Shown one piece after another: positions 16,821 to 23,092 of a DNA stretch of 43,771 bases. Position 1 is the stretch's first letter. Every line of letters begins with the position of its first letter. Under the pieces are notes generated by a model that saw only the letters and a list, made by a program, of their open reading frames with translations, ran no database searches and was not told the DNA's origin. Made by a program: the position numbers and the translations under genes. Source of the stretch: Clostridia bacterium (GTDB lineage: Bacteria; Bacillota; Clostridia; Oscillospirales; Acutalibacteraceae); NCBI GenBank assembly GCA_017618135.1, contig JAFZUV010000010.1:1-43771 (forward strand), read 5' to 3'.

Positions 16821-17606
16821 CTAAAAGCCGAATAAATTTTTTGCATTTTCGCGGGTTTGATACAAAACCTCGTCGCGCTTAGTACCTAAAATCTCTGCAA
16901 CTTTTTGTGCCGTTAAGGCGATATAACCGGAGTGGCAAAGCTTTCCCCGGTACGGCTCGGGAGCTAAATACGGGCAGTCTGTTTCAAGAAGCAGACGGTC
17001 TTTTGGTATTGCTTTTATAACTTCCGGAAGTTTTTTTGCGTTTTTGAATGTTACAATGCCGCCTACACCTATATACATACCGAGTTTTATAATTCCCATA
17101 GCCGTTTCGGTACTGCCTGAAAAGCAGTGCAAAACGCCTTGCGGCTTGTAGTGTTTTAGAATTTCGAGCGTGTCGGCGTGAGCGTCCCTGTCGTGAACAA
17201 TAATCGGCAAATCAAGCTCATTTGCTAAAATTATTTGGTCTTCAAAAAACTTTAACTGTTCTTTTCTGTTATCTGAAGTCCAATAATAATCAAGCCCTAT
17301 TTCGCCTATTGCAACGCACTTTTCGTGCGATGAAAGAACGCGAATTTCTTCAACAGTCGTTCCGCTTTGCAGATTTCCCGGGTGAATACCCACCGCGGCG
17401 TAAACAAAATCGTACTTTTCCGCAAGGGCGAGCGTTTTTTCAGCGGAGAACCCGTCCACAGCGCAGGTGACGATTTTGTCAACGCCGTTTTTGTTAAGGG
17501 AACATAGAAGCTCATCCCGTATACCGTCAAATTTTTCATCGTCATAATGCGCGTGGGTATCAATTATAAGATTTTTAAATAGTTTTAACTCATCCGGATA
17601 AATCAT
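16821..17606 (-). CDS. tatD: TatD-family metal-dependent hydrolase
   Basis: A 261-residue TIM-barrel amidohydrolase with metal-ligand motifs in order: DTHAHYDD (His-x-His), AIGEIGLDYYW (the bridging Glu), PIIVHDRDAH, VLHCFSGS (His), and LLETDCPYLAPEPYRGK (catalytic Asp). TatD enzymes are Mg-dependent DNases (3'-5' exonuclease in E. coli) and some act on D-aminoacyl-tRNA or other substrates. The start overlaps the metG stop by 4 nt (ATGA), an arrangement that is conserved widely in Firmicutes. The C-terminal KRDEVLYQTRENAKNLFGF is the normal family ending. Confidence 0.96.
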   Translation of the reverse strand: MIYPDELKLFKNLIIDTHAHYDDEKFDGIRDELLCSLNKNGVDKIVTCAVDGFSAEKTLALAEKYDFVYAAVGIHPGNLQSGTTVEEIRVLSSHEKCVAIGEIGLDYYWTSDNRKEQLKFFEDQIILANELDLPIIVHDRDAHADTLEILKHYKPQGVLHCFSGSTETAMGIIKLGMYIGVGGIVTFKNAKKLPEVIKAIPKDRLLLETDCPYLAPEPYRGKLCHSGYIALTAQKVAEILGTKRDEVLYQTRENAKNLFGF

Positions 17607-19519
17607 CTTATTTTACTGCCGGGCGTAACACCGTCTAAAAATACAACCTTTATTTTATCATCCGCGTCGGCGGCCAAAATCATACCGTTTGACTCAACTC
17701 CACAAAGCGTTGCGGGCTTGAGATTTGCAACAACTATAACAGTTTTGCCTATAAGCTCGTCGGGTGTGTAGAATTTGGCAATTCCCGAAGCTACGATGCG
17801 AGGTGTGCCTGAGCCGTCGTCGAGCGTAAGCTTTAAAAGCTTTTTAGCCTTTGGTATCGGCTCGCAGGAGGTAACTTTTGCCGCACGAAGCTCGATTTTT
17901 GCAAAATCATCAATAGATATTTGATCAAGCTTAACTGTGTTTTCCGTTTTTAATTCCGCAACCTCTTTTTTTTCGGCTATTTCGGCGAGCGCCTTTTCGG
18001 CATCTATCCTCGCAAAGAGCGGTTTTGCTTCGCCTACAGTGTAGGAGTTTACAGCACCGAATGTGAGCGCATCTTCATCTGTGCCGATGAGAGCTTTTAT
18101 TTTATCTGAACACTCAGGCATAGCAGGATAAATAAGTATGCCTAATATTCTTATACATTCGAGCAGGTTGTAAAGTACGGCTTTGAGCCTGTCTTTATCA
18201 TCCTCGCTTTTAGCAAGCAGCCACGGGGCGGTTTCGTCAATATATTTATTTGAACGCTTTGCAAGAGACATAATTGCCGCTACCGCGTCGGCGTTGTGAT
18301 ATAATTCCATATTTTCGGTGTATTTTTTAACCGCGTCGGCGGTAAACGCTTTAAGCTCATTGTCAAGCGCATCGCTTTTCCCGAGAGAGTCCACCGTGCC
18401 GTCAAAATACTTGCCCGCCATTGCAATACTTCGGTTTACAAGATTACCAAGCGTGTTAGCAAGGTCGGTATTATATTTACCTATAAAAGATTCATAGGTA
18501 ATAGTACCGTCCTGTGTAAAAGGTATTTCGCTTAAAAGGTAATACCTTACTGCATCTGCTCCGAACATTTCAGCCAACTCGTCCGCATAAATAACATTGC
18601 CCTTTGATTTAGACATTTTATCTTCGCCTACAAGTACCCATGGGTGGCCGAGAACCTGTTTTGGCAACGGCTCACCGAGAGCCAAAAGAATAATAGGCCA
18701 GTAAATAGTGTGAAAACGCACAATATCCTTACCTATGACATGAAGGTCGGCAGGCCAATACTTTTTATAGCTTTCACCCGTATTACCGTCAGTATCGTAG
18801 CCTATACCGGTGATATAGTTTGAAAGCGCGTCAATCCACACATAAATTACATGGTCTTTATCGAAAGTCACAGGGATACCCCATTTAAAACTTGAACGAG
18901 AAACGCAAAGGTCTGCAAGACCGGGTTTAATAAAGTTATTTATCATCTCGTTTTTGCGTGACTCGGGTTTTATGAAATCGGGGTTATCTTTGTAGTATTT
19001 AACGAGAGCGTCCTGATATTTTGAAAGGCGCAGAAAATAAGCTTCCTCTTTTGCGTCTATAACATCTCTGCCGCAATCGGGACATTTTCCGTCAACGAGT
19101 TGTGACGCTGTAAAGAATGATTCGCAGGGCACACAGTATTTCCCTTCATATGCGCCTTTGTAGATATCGCCTTTATCGTAAAGTTTTTTGAAAATATGCT
19201 GTACGGCTTTTTCGTGGTCGGCATCAGTGGTTCGAATGAATTTATCATAGCTTGTGTTAAGACTGTTCCATACATACTTTATTTCGCCCGATATCTTATC
19301 TACATATTCTTTAGGCGTTACGCCTTCATTCTTTGCACATTCCTCGATTTTCTGACCGTGCTCATCGGAGCCGGTCATAAAGAAAACATCGAAGCCGTTC
19401 TGCCTTTTATAGCGTGCTATCATATCGGCAAGGACAACATCATAAGCATTACCGATATGCGGCTTGCGTGAAGTGTACGCGATAGCCGTCGTGATATAAA
19501 ATTTCTTTTTTTCTGACAT
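17603..19519 (-). CDS. metG: Methionyl-tRNA synthetase with C-terminal tRNA-binding domain
   Basis: A 638-residue class I aminoacyl-tRNA synthetase that charges tRNA-Met. The HIGH motif is HIGN (residues 21-24) and the KMSKS loop is KMSKSKGN (about residue 300). A single CxxC-x(n)-CxxC zinc knuckle (CVPCESF...KCPDCG, about 127-147) is present, as in the Bacillus-type enzyme. The last 105 residues (IDDFAKIELRAAKV, GVESNGMILAA) are an EMAP/Arc1-like tRNA-binding domain. No T-box leader is evident; the gene follows the preceding one after 15 bp, so it depends on upstream promoters. Confidence 0.98.
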   Translation of the reverse strand: MSEKKKFYITTAIAYTSRKPHIGNAYDVVLADMIARYKRQNGFDVFFMTGSDEHGQKIEECAKNEGVTPKEYVDKISGEIKYVWNSLNTSYDKFIRTTDADHEKAVQHIFKKLYDKGDIYKGAYEGKYCVPCESFFTASQLVDGKCPDCGRDVIDAKEEAYFLRLSKYQDALVKYYKDNPDFIKPESRKNEMINNFIKPGLADLCVSRSSFKWGIPVTFDKDHVIYVWIDALSNYITGIGYDTDGNTGESYKKYWPADLHVIGKDIVRFHTIYWPIILLALGEPLPKQVLGHPWVLVGEDKMSKSKGNVIYADELAEMFGADAVRYYLLSEIPFTQDGTITYESFIGKYNTDLANTLGNLVNRSIAMAGKYFDGTVDSLGKSDALDNELKAFTADAVKKYTENMELYHNADAVAAIMSLAKRSNKYIDETAPWLLAKSEDDKDRLKAVLYNLLECIRILGILIYPAMPECSDKIKALIGTDEDALTFGAVNSYTVGEAKPLFARIDAEKALAEIAEKKEVAELKTENTVKLDQISIDDFAKIELRAAKVTSCEPIPKAKKLLKLTLDDGSGTPRIVASGIAKFYTPDELIGKTVIVVANLKPATLCGVESNGMILAADADDKIKVVFLDGVTPGSKIR

Positions 19520-19534
19520 ATTTCTAACCCTCTT

Positions 19535-22216
19535 TTACGGTTTTCTGAACAAGAATGCCAACAGTGAAAAAACAGTTGCTAAAAGCTCAAATATCAGAAT
19601 TGACAATCCGGAAAGCATACCTGCCGATTGTGCAAAGGAAGTAAAAGCAAAGTACCAAATACCCAGTATAGACGCCAATACATAAAATACAGACAGTATA
19701 TTGTTTGAAATTCTGATGCGTGAGGCACAATTCATTATTTGTAAAAGCGCAAGCTTGCTGCCTGAAAAACTTGCCGGCGCCGAAACAAAGCTTGTTTTGG
19801 CAGTAGCACCCTCGTACATATGAACGCCAACGTTGGTCATAACTTTTACAGAATCATCGTAAAGACCAAAGTAGTCGCAAATCATTTCTTCGCTCACATT
19901 GGGATCACAGTTTCTTATGAGCAGAGTAACTCCAAGCCGCGATATTTGCCGTAGCAGTTTTTGAATATCCGACCTTACCTCGTACTGTATAACGATAAGC
20001 GCATTAGCCTTACTTTCGGTACCTACATATACGGGAAAATACCCGTTTCGAAGTATCTTTTTATCAACCTCAATACTCGGTACTTCAATACCGTGCGCTT
20101 CCATAAGTGTTCGATTGCCGATAAACAAAAGCTCATTGTCTACCCAACCGGATATTCCGAGTTTTTCTTCATATTTTATTGTGTCCGAATCAGGCTTTTT
20201 GTATGAGGTGTTTGTTCCGGCAATTTTATTGAATATCGGAGCGAGAGGACTTCCTATAGCTTCGGTAAGCGCCGCCGCGTTTACGATTGTTTTATCAACA
20301 TCGTTTTCGGATAAAACCCTGAAATTTTTCAGTTTTATACTTCCGCTCGGGAAGATATCGGAGGTTTCAATAACAGCCGCATTGGCAAGCTCTATGCTGT
20401 CCGCCCCGAAAGTTCCGGCAATCATACCGCCTTTTTTCGAAAGCTTTCTGCTTGCTGAAAAAAGAGGAAGCGCGTCTACAAACATTACCGCCGGCATAGC
20501 TGCCATAACGGTCGCCGCATAAGCGGCATAAATTGCTGCGAAGGCGGATTTGTAATAAAAGTATCCCATAGCCGCGCCTATAACCGATAAAACAAGAGTT
20601 GTAATAAATACTATGGGTATTTTACCGGAAAACTTTTTCTTATAAAGTGAAAACTTTAAATAGTCGCCTATAAACTCGGCTTTTTTGGGAGCCGCAATCA
20701 AGACATCTCCGTCAATGGCGTTTTTTGCCATAGCAAGCGCGGTAGAACTGTCTTTAATAAAAGAAACAGCAAATTTTTCCCTCTTATTCTTTATGGCATT
20801 AACGTTTAAAAGCGTTGCAGAAGTTTGTAAAAATTTAATTATCGATCTTATAAGAATAATCAGCGAAGATAAGAGTATCAGATGATAAATATTCTCACCG
20901 TTTACCATTGCAATAATACACAACGGTATGCTGAATATCGCGCACAAGGCGACAAGACAGTCGTGCGAAGCACTGTGCTTAAACAGATTAAATAAATCTA
21001 TAAACATTTTAATATTGGCGGCAATTGATATAAAAAGAAGCGTACTGCACAGGATGACAACTGATTTTGTTGAGCTTATAACCTTGTCGGAAAGAAAAGG
21101 AGTAAGAAAAAGTGAGGTAACAAACGCACATAAGACACATATAAGCATTGATAAAAAGTTATTTCGCCTTTTAATATAAAGATTTCTTGCAAACGCCTTT
21201 GCAGAAAGCATATCGGTAATCTCACCTTTTGGTGTAAACAAATCAAAGTCACTGGTCTCAAATACCGTATCATTTGATTGCTGTTCGGCTTCATTGGCGC
21301 CTGTCAACTCTTGATTTATATCAATTATTCTTGTTGAACTGCTTATGTTTATCCTGCCTGTATTTCCCTTCTCATCCTTGATAGGAGTAAAACGGATAGT
21401 GGCAGTGTCAGACAATTCCCCGTAATCTGTATCCCCTTTCTCAACCATATGTGAGTTGTCGATATCAGAGATATCGGGAATACTATCACTTTCTTTTGAC
21501 TTTTCGGTTTCGTTCGGAAAAATTTCATCAAAGATGCTCTTTTCGAACCTCTGCTTTGATTCATTAGCCAGTCTTTTAAAAGTTGGGGTGGGGGAGGGAG
21601 ATTGTTCGTTTTCTTTTGGATTTTCTTTTATCTCTTCGGTTTTATCAGGAGCATCGTTATTTTCATCAATACCTTCAAGCAAAAAATCATCCTTTTCAGG
21701 CTTGCCTAAGGTATCAATGGTTACATTGTATTTTTCCGAGAGCTGATTTATAAGGCTGTTACTGTCACTTTTTATAATTTCAGCTACGCTCTCAAGCTTG
21801 TAAAGGGGAGCTTCGTCCTTCGTAACATCATGACCCTTTTCATCAATGGTATACCGCTTTAGTTTTTCAAGAAGCGATATATCTTTTTCTTCGCTTTTTT
21901 TATCCGCTTCATTTTTTGAAGTTTGACTATCTGATTCGTTTTTTTTGTGTGATATTTCAGTATAAGATGAATTTATATCATCATCCGCGTTTGTATTCAC
22001 TTTAACTTTTGCTTTAAGGGAAGCGAGAGGTGATAATGCTTTATTATCATTTTGGTCGGAAACAGTGCGGTTGTCGCCGGTTTTTAAAGATATATTATCA
22101 CCAAACGCAGATAAAACCTCTTTATTCTTTCCGGCGAGTAAATCTCCTTTGTCTTCATATGAAAAGTCTATGTCCATAATAAAATTATCGTTATAATCAT
22201 TTGTTTTCTTTGACAT
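19535..22216 (-). CDS. Degenerate P-type-ATPase-like membrane protein (pseudoenzyme)
   Basis: The first 340 residues are acidic and low in complexity (many Asp, Glu, Ser, Lys) and probably disordered. From about 352 the layout follows a P1B-type ATPase: four helices (352-463), a soluble segment, two helices (532-580) with MPAV where CPx-type proteins have their metal Cys-Pro, then KLSKKGGMIAGTFGADSIELANAA before the expected phosphorylation site, and two C-terminal helices (838-890). The DKTGT site reads ETSDI (617-621), the TGD site reads RNCDP, and GDGxNDxxA is absent. The N-domain-like GISGWVDNELLFIGNRTLM (687-705) is well kept. It cannot form the aspartyl-phosphate in the normal way, so a scaffold or sensor role is inferred. 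It lies in the rlmB-metG operon. Confidence 0.75.
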   Translation of the reverse strand: MSKKTNDYNDNFIMDIDFSYEDKGDLLAGKNKEVLSAFGDNISLKTGDNRTVSDQNDNKALSPLASLKAKVKVNTNADDDINSSYTEISHKKNESDSQTSKNEADKKSEEKDISLLEKLKRYTIDEKGHDVTKDEAPLYKLESVAEIIKSDSNSLINQLSEKYNVTIDTLGKPEKDDFLLEGIDENNDAPDKTEEIKENPKENEQSPSPTPTFKRLANESKQRFEKSIFDEIFPNETEKSKESDSIPDISDIDNSHMVEKGDTDYGELSDTATIRFTPIKDEKGNTGRINISSSTRIIDINQELTGANEAEQQSNDTVFETSDFDLFTPKGEITDMLSAKAFARNLYIKRRNNFLSMLICVLCAFVTSLFLTPFLSDKVISSTKSVVILCSTLLFISIAANIKMFIDLFNLFKHSASHDCLVALCAIFSIPLCIIAMVNGENIYHLILLSSLIILIRSIIKFLQTSATLLNVNAIKNKREKFAVSFIKDSSTALAMAKNAIDGDVLIAAPKKAEFIGDYLKFSLYKKKFSGKIPIVFITTLVLSVIGAAMGYFYYKSAFAAIYAAYAATVMAAMPAVMFVDALPLFSASRKLSKKGGMIAGTFGADSIELANAAVIETSDIFPSGSIKLKNFRVLSENDVDKTIVNAAALTEAIGSPLAPIFNKIAGTNTSYKKPDSDTIKYEEKLGISGWVDNELLFIGNRTLMEAHGIEVPSIEVDKKILRNGYFPVYVGTESKANALIVIQYEVRSDIQKLLRQISRLGVTLLIRNCDPNVSEEMICDYFGLYDDSVKVMTNVGVHMYEGATAKTSFVSAPASFSGSKLALLQIMNCASRIRISNNILSVFYVLASILGIWYFAFTSFAQSAGMLSGLSILIFELLATVFSLLAFLFRKP

Positions 22217-22235: not shown

Positions 22236-22988
22236 TTATTCGTTCCTTAATTTCATAATGTTGTACATCAGGATACCCGCCGCAACAGAGGCGTTAAGCG
22301 AGTTAATTTTGCCACGCATCGGCAGACTGATTATTTTATCACATTTTTTAAGGACTAACGGTCCTATACCTTTTCCTTCATTTCCTATTACAAGCGCCAA
22401 CGGTATATGGTAATCGCAAGCCGAGTAGTTCTCACCTGACATATCCGCGCCGAAAACCCATATGCCGTTTTGTTTTAATTCGTCTATTGTCGCTGCAATA
22501 TTGGTCACACGGGCAACACGAATATATTCGAGGGCTCCGGCACTGGTTTTTGCCACGGTGGCGTTAAGCGAAGCGGAGCGCCGCTTAGGAATAATAATAC
22601 CATGCACGCCGCAAACCTCCGCTGTTCGGATAATGGCGCCTAAATTATGCGGATCTTCTATTTCATCACAAATCAAAAGAAAAGGATCTTCGCTTCGCTC
22701 TTTTGCATAATTCAAGATATCGTCAATAGAAGCATACTCGTGACCTGCATACATTACCGCAACGCCCTGATGGTTAGTGCCGCCGCAGTAAAAATCAAGC
22801 TTCTGAGGACTTACTTCTTTTATAAGTATACCTCTTTTTGAGCATTTGGCGATTATTTCCTTGATACTGCCGCCGGAGGCACCGTGAGCTATAAGTAATC
22901 GTTCGATTTCTCTGCCGGAACGGATTGCTTCAAGAACAGGATTTTTTCCGCAAATTATGTTGTTCTGTTTATCTGAGCCTTTGAGCAT
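22236..22988 (-). CDS. rlmB: 23S rRNA 2'-O-methyltransferase, TrmH/RlmB type
   Basis: A 250-residue SPOUT methyltransferase that uses S-adenosylmethionine to methylate a ribose 2'-OH, in RlmB at G2251 of 23S rRNA (E. coli numbering). The substrate-binding N-domain starts IICGKNPVLEAIRSG. The trefoil-knot motifs are IEDPHNLGAIIRTAE (motif 1, with Asn and Arg), LALVIGNEGKGI (motif 2) and ISLPMRGKINSLNASVAAGILMY (motif 3). ATG 22988 follows AAGGTGATAATA; an in-frame start six codons earlier is less well placed. A minus-strand TATAAT lies at 23018-23023. Confidence 0.93.
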   Translation of the reverse strand: MLKGSDKQNNIICGKNPVLEAIRSGREIERLLIAHGASGGSIKEIIAKCSKRGILIKEVSPQKLDFYCGGTNHQGVAVMYAGHEYASIDDILNYAKERSEDPFLLICDEIEDPHNLGAIIRTAEVCGVHGIIIPKRRSASLNATVAKTSAGALEYIRVARVTNIAATIDELKQNGIWVFGADMSGENYSACDYHIPLALVIGNEGKGIGPLVLKKCDKIISLPMRGKINSLNASVAAGILMYNIMKLRNE

Positions 22989-23092
22989 TATTATCACCTT
23001 GTGCAATAATATATTAGATTATACCACAAGAGTTTATAAAAATAAAGACTAAATTCCAAAAAAACACATTATATTGTGGTTGAAATCACTTG

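Follow-up and report, generated by a model that had tools for sequence, protein, structure and literature searches.

A candidate pseudoenzyme family of the P-type ATPase fold, usually encoded next to rlmB, in one bacterial order

We report on gene X, an open reading frame encoding 893 amino acids with an ATG start and no internal stop, which is located on the minus strand of the window, i.e. the whole stretch of 43,771 nucleotides that was analysed. The gene is part of a cluster with the order rlmB - X - metG - tatD, all on the minus strand, and the gaps around it are 19 nt to rlmB (upstream) and 15 nt to metG (downstream):

22236..23006, minus strand: rlmB, 23S rRNA (guanosine-2251) 2'-O-methyltransferase, directly upstream of gene X (TIGR00186, E 1.8e-74)
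19535..22216, minus strand: gene X, degenerate P1B-type ATPase-like membrane protein (profile homology and predicted structure)
17603..19519, minus strand: metG, methionine-tRNA ligase, directly downstream of gene X (PRK12267, E 1.8e-265)
16821..17606, minus strand: TatD-family nuclease gene, last in the cluster (PF01026, E 7.2e-82)

The rlmB gene is directly upstream of X at 29/30 loci of the genus (window included), 71/73 loci from public contigs and 56/60 loci from the order. The order exceptions are L188, where only 92 nt separate the start of X from the end of a contig, L050, where the X frame is split, L185, which has a gap of 649 nt, and L031, where a different gene occupies this position. 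The gene that precedes X in place of rlmB in the last case (L031:2137-3501, plus strand, family f2) is by eye a probable obgE. The metG gene is found within 650 nt downstream of X at 61/73 of the public-contig loci and was seen in none of the 60 order stretches. Hence, of the tie to rlmB and metG put forward in an earlier reading of the window (the sequence-only reading), the rlmB part extends over the order but the metG part is local to close relatives, and a functional link between X and metG was rejected. Directly downstream of X, a gene for an EF-G-like GTPase is present in 9/57 order loci, e.g. L041, L046, L047 and L050 (L169 and L172 left out of this count; Pfam identity checked on one copy), and no other gene occurs immediately downstream in more than three order loci. 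In two MAGs, L050 (4164-5255 and 5268-6560) and L040, X is split in two frames, which could be due to an error in sequencing or could mean that the protein exists there as two chains.

P-type homology and the old catalytic site

The X protein matches the NCBIfam CopA model (E 1.8e-12, residues 529-785) and Legionella CopA 3rfu, the latter with E 9e-8 for the PDB sequence and E 2.4e-34 when a family profile was used; given these values the P-type homology is not due to chance. Pfam-A gave no match to the full-length window protein even at E 1, and none of the 27 trimmed members of the order profile (see below) has a match at E 0.01. In the predicted structure, a P/N arrangement and a P1B membrane topology and bundle are present. 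The P-type fold that had been read from the letters is thus supported by this model as well as by the profile matches, and the N-domain-like stretch named in that reading, GISGWVDNELLFIGNRTLM, is indeed present at residues 687-705. In a phylogenetic tree, a branch of length 1.07 (support 1.0) separates 68 X sequences from 32 genuine pumps, a split that carries no date; in a smaller tree with 19 pumps, taken from one strand only, the support for the X clade was 0.50.

The motif register was obtained from an ungapped profile alignment of X to Legionella CopA, in which residue 617 corresponds to the phosphorylated Asp and residue 771 to the Asp of TGD. Columns and motifs were counted in 74 sequences (the window and 73 relatives from public contigs, referred to as close relatives), in the 60 order loci, and in 59 order representatives, which are the 60 order loci minus the two with split frames (L040 and L050) plus the window. 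The sites of interest in the window are:

20354..20368, minus strand: residues 617-621, ETSDI as the equivalent of DKTGT, followed by the family-conserved F622-P623 (profile alignment)
19904..19912, minus strand: N769-C770-D771, the equivalent of TGD (profile alignment and column counts)
19808..19849, minus strand: residues 790-803 (placed by eye), where GDGxND would fall, motif absent (motif counts)
20099..20158, minus strand: residues 687-706, a highly conserved N-domain stretch (GISGWVDNELLFIGNRTLM) with G687 and G700 (column counts)
20621..20788, minus strand: residues 477-532, a reduced remnant of the actuator domain, located between TM4 and TM5, without TGE (profile alignment and predicted helices)

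The replacement of DKTGT by ETSDI at residues 617-621, as claimed earlier, was recovered in the translated reading frame, and neither DKTGT nor GDGxND was detected in any of the 74 close relatives or the 60 order loci. The claimed lack of GDGxND therefore applies to the window and to every set inspected, and its absence is a trait of the predicted proteins of the whole X family as sampled. A DKTGS string in one order sequence (L157) is located in the tail, outside the P domain. An alternative register that would rescue DKTGT was rejected since residue 617 aligns with the catalytic Asp and the commonest Asp of the family (618) is one residue off, and no homologue in the two sets keeps the motif in another register. 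ETSDI itself is not conserved among the 74 sequences. As a control, 32 of 34 non-X matches to the same profile keep both DKTGT and GDGxND; these 34 are the subset of all matches whose loci came from the class draw and from the re-search of 13 genomes (see below). Of the remaining two, L213 is a pump gene whose frame is broken, with DKTGT on the second piece, and L215 is a degenerate pump with SKTG.

Other hallmarks of P-type pumps are missing as well. Specifically, the window protein has no TGE, and TGE[SPA] occurs anywhere in the protein in only 1/60 order loci and 1/74 close relatives; bare TGE, counted at any position, occurs in 13/60 and 36/74, and the tail consensus itself contains IDLTGE. 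The actuator remnant covers approximately 52 profile positions vs 118 residues in Legionella CopA. CP[CHS], which marks the CPx metal site of the M4-like helix, is present in none of the 59 order representatives, the window reading AMPA at this place; one of 60 has it at some position once both split sequences are counted, and among close relatives it was found in 4/74, in all cases clearly upstream or downstream of the M4-like helix. The adenine-binding SEHP motif of the N domain is absent from all 74 close relatives and all 59 order representatives. Moreover, no column after residue 775 is acidic in ≥45% of the order representatives, and therefore the metal site of P-type/HAD enzymes looks to be missing throughout the family. 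Taken together, X is very probably not a working P-type ATPase.

Part of the old active site is nevertheless retained. The TGD motif had been reported to read RNCDP; the string is as stated, at residues 768-772, with Thr and Gly lost, but the Asp remains as D771, which is conserved in 58/59 order representatives together with Thr or Ser at 769 in 43/59, while the former Gly position is R, C, F or other residues. Position 617, which is Glu in the window, is Asp in 16/59 and position 618 in 39/59, such that 50/59 have Asp at one or both positions and nine, the window among them, at neither; residue 620 is Asp or Glu in 52/59. Among the 74 close relatives D617 is present in five and D618 in none. 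An Asp at or next to 617 is thus common in other families and rare near the window, which makes its loss a trait of the window's relatives: where the active site used to be, the X family keeps a putative cluster of acidic residues, of which the window's closer relatives appear mostly to have given up the key Asp. Further conserved columns are G700 (59/59), G687 (58/59), Y745 (56/59), F622 (51/59), P623 (49/59) and N773 (47/59), and two prolines are conserved at columns 574 (48/59) and 584 (47/59).

As a counterpoint to complete inactivity, the Asp at or next to 617 in 50/59 and D771 in 58/59 mean that other families may still carry out some chemistry. In most families of the order, a residual activity of the HAD type, either phosphatase or phosphotransfer, might operate through Asp 617/618 together with T769, D771 and the acidic residue at 620, with the window's relatives having lost it later, and the frequencies given above for these four sites fit such a scheme. 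We regard it as quite unlikely, as the carboxylate of motif IV is missing (cf. the lack of an acidic column after 775), the Asp occurs in two registers and the window has neither. In line with this, the combination of a DxD in HAD phosphatase motif I and an acidic pair in motif IV was not found, the window being without Asp at 617/618.

Distribution and selection

With the X protein as query, matches at E 1e-5 were obtained in 56/60 related genomes, own genome included, and in 34/36 other genomes of the genus; some of the weaker matches at the order level could be ordinary pumps. At E 0.001, this query gave no match other than X itself in the genome of the window. Searches with a 27-row order profile (the family profile), which score only the best first-look candidates per genome (five in the class draw, seven in the order and phylum draws), gave a picture with two peaks. 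In the class draw (245 genomes), each of the nine members of the order has a full-length match with E ≤ 4e-118 vs a best value of E 2.3e-37 in the other 236, where only the pump-like middle is covered. In the phylum draw 2/199 genomes pass E 1e-38, both from the order, and no full-length X was detected outside the order in these two draws (245 and 199 genomes).

Within the order, 184/197 genomes pass E 1e-60 with a single match each (150/155 of the good genomes), and the remaining 13 gave weaker matches only upon re-search. Four of the five good genomes that are without an X match have no RlmB above the cut-off, just weaker SpoU-type matches. In the fifth (G303), rlmB is situated 422 nt from a contig end and is followed by an open frame (L216:2220-2642) with the tail motif EFSVEDILAEF (see below), which very likely is the start of an X gene cut by the contig, so that G303, too, very likely has X. 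With no RlmB above the cut-off in four and a contig end in the fifth, the gaps can be accounted for by loci that were lost or not assembled. The X family is single-copy and nearly universal in the sampled genomes of one order.

Four matches to the family profile are present in the window's genome, X and three others, one of which (C9:132994-133806) is listed and covers profile positions 201-480 only, like ordinary pumps. Pseudoenzymes often regulate active relatives, and X, which retains the overall shape of a pump in the predicted model, might accordingly act as a pseudo-subunit that regulates a genuine P1B pump of its own cell and pairs with this pump via the membrane or the N domain. The three additional matches would provide candidates for such a pump. 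The recurrent neighbour of X is, however, rlmB and not a pump gene, and profile matches occur in 231/245 class genomes whereas full-length X is confined to nine genomes of the order; with pump matches this widespread, co-occurrence of pumps and X does not discriminate. We therefore find a role as pump partner unlikely.

Selection was estimated as dN/dS (NG86) for 18 pairs with dS < 1.6, of which 14 are listed; the pairs share sequences and none of those listed includes the window gene. Overall dN/dS in the 14 listed pairs ranges from 0.073 to 0.249, i.e. it is low among relatives of the window gene, and purifying selection on the whole X protein, as measured on these relatives, is a safe statement. 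For the four closest pairs (dS < 0.8), dN/dS of the P/N part (residues 601-830) is 0.025-0.050 and of the tail 0.104-0.246. The P/N part is lowest by dN in 12/14 and by dN/dS in 8/14 listed pairs, and the last 63 residues of one close pair have still lower values. In most listed pairs the dead head is thus, by dN, under no weaker constraint than the membrane part.

These data bear on two further explanations. Loss of motifs alone would fit a decaying or misassembled pump gene, as would the two order loci with split frames (L040 and L050), which possibly reflect sequencing or assembly errors. None of the 34 matched genus relatives has a stop inside the match, however, dN/dS is far below 1 and the gene is retained across the order; decay was rejected on these grounds and its probability is close to nil, which agrees with the earlier statement that a frame open over 893 codons is not a decaying gene. 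Alternatively, X could use the transmembrane bundle of the pump as a channel or carrier that works without ATP. The predicted P1B-like membrane helices, the prolines at 574 and 584 and a Trp at 880 (55/59, Ala in the window) are compatible with transport, but a channel has no need of the head, which is the part with the lowest dN in 12/14 listed pairs, and CP[CHS] is missing in all 59 representatives; we consider this improbable. W880, near the C-terminus, is the top-scoring conserved column of the order, and its replacement in the window is found alongside the lost Asp.

The N-terminal tail and a possible role

The N-terminal part of the window protein was described as an acidic, probably disordered stretch of about 340 residues, and this is what we find for residues 1-334 (22% D+E and 13% K+R):

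21215..22216, minus strand: residues 1-334, N-terminal tail, acidic and mostly predicted disordered (composition; pLDDT mostly < 60)
21722..21880, minus strand: residues 113-165, conserved tail block, candidate counterpart of the S[VIL][DE][DE]IL motif (68-row alignment)

In the 68-row alignment (the 74 sequences minus L117, L118 and L120-L123), there is no variation at Y139 and L141, and at least 90% of the rows share L115, D125, G128, P137, V144, I147, T273, F276 and P278. The tails of other families carry S[VIL][DE][DE][IL][LIM] near the N-terminus, e.g. FSLEDILAEF and FSIDDILAEF. The strict motif was detected in 15 of 56 tails (the 60 order loci minus L040, L050 and two with tails shorter than 60 aa; the window is not among them), whereas 500 rounds of shuffling gave 0.09 matching tails on average and never more than 2, and 41/56 are unmatched; the G303 frame adds one instance outside this count. 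A few candidate intermediates, e.g. LQSVEEILAEM (L120) and FSVDDILNEV (L123), were compared by eye with YxLESVAEIL of the window's relatives, and suggest that the motif of the other families and the YxLESVAEIL block are linked. A search at the DNA level in eight genomes gave a match in three, each inside X. The idea that the tail motif is a docking code shared with other proteins was rejected since, among proteins of ≥80 aa in loci L001-L123 and in the eight genomes, it was seen outside X solely in the split N-terminal X frame of L050. With respect to docking of the tail on the head, blocks 111-170 have pLDDT 58-78 in the predicted model and the tail block is poorly ordered in the full-length model.

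The catalytic parts are lost, yet the gene is near-universal, single-copy and usually located beside rlmB, and X therefore probably has a non-pumping job. That X is a pseudoenzyme, i.e. a homologue of an enzyme that has lost catalytic residues and is kept under purifying selection, is well supported by the sequences, from which we infer the catalytic inactivity itself. The sequence-only reading had proposed a candidate pseudoenzyme with a new role: the catalytic loss stands, and the new role is something that we, too, can only infer. On balance we lean towards an order-wide, P1B-derived family that has lost pumping and now acts as a membrane-anchored scaffold or sensor, while for the scaffold or sensor function taken by itself the case is evenly poised; a pump partner, residual HAD chemistry and a channel are ranked lower.

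In the mechanism that we propose, X would descend from a P1B metal pump. By sequence and predicted structure, the P1B topology and the P/N head remain, whereas the motif with the phosphorylated Asp, the hinge that binds Mg, the loop for dephosphorylation, the CPx metal site within the membrane and roughly half of the actuator domain are gone. The N-domain cleft, with its near-invariant glycines, together with Y745, D771 and N773 may hold a fixed or ligand-gated shape of the head, and the long acidic tail may hold a cytosolic partner at the membrane via short motifs, S[VIL][DE][DE]IL in other families and YxLESVAEIL among the relatives of the window. A ligand or partner of the head is suggested by the constraint found there, and a recruited protein by the tail motifs; both are hypothetical, and scaffolding is suggested by what X has lost. 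A more far-reaching and tentative version, which we regard as possible but rather doubtful, is that early in the order a metal pump turned into a non-transporting membrane hub, since then fixed in single copy throughout the order, in which the head senses a nucleotide or other ligand and the S[VIL][DE][DE]IL peptide of the tail recruits a cytosolic partner, and which may be essential in these gut bacteria.

Known systems and other degenerate pump relatives

Compared with the P1B copper pumps CopA (Legionella, 3rfu/4bbj; Archaeoglobus, 3a1c), X is without DKTGT, GDGxND, the TGE loop, CPx and SEHP, its actuator domain is approximately halved, it has no Pfam domain and instead carries a long, acidic and mostly disordered tail. 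In the open-licence PMC literature we found no bacterial P-type pseudo-ATPase, and only human TMEM94/ERMA as a catalytically dead P-type relative, a status that is disputed. One report (PMC12134183) describes a P-type architecture without TGES and with ten membrane helices, names D417, gives micromolar AMPPCP binding and no ATPase activity, and argues against the status of a P-type Mg2+ ATPase. The opposite view, that of an ER Mg2+ ATPase, is taken in another (PMC13322241). By description, TMEM94/ERMA resembles X in its P-type architecture without TGES and in the reported lack of ATPase activity, and differs from it in the ten membrane helices, D417 and the binding of AMPPCP.

We regard the X family as a pseudoenzyme family of the P-type fold; it is matched by no Pfam model. 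It represents a natural test of what the scaffold of a pump can do without pumping, and X is a marker gene for a bacterial group that is common in animal guts.

In family f19, a second degenerate P-type-ATPase-like protein (gene Y) is encoded just upstream of rlmB, such that two pump relatives flank rlmB:

L046:8051-10261, minus strand: gene Y, 736 aa
L189:540-2750, plus strand: gene Y
L190:3-2441, plus strand: gene Y

The three Y sequences have neither DKTGT nor GDG (and hence no GDGxND); L189 has a DKTGG near residue 220, in the actuator part. Gene Y is thus like X P-type-like without the two motifs and part of the same rlmB cluster but, unlike X, the L046 protein matches the E1-E2 actuator domain PF00122. 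Strong full-length matches to Y were obtained in 3/117 order genomes, all of f19. Inactive pumps may have evolved repeatedly within the order. Finally, an f19 genome encodes a third degenerate P1B-like protein (L215; G448:C13:81123-81701), which has SKTG for DKTG and GDD for GDG.
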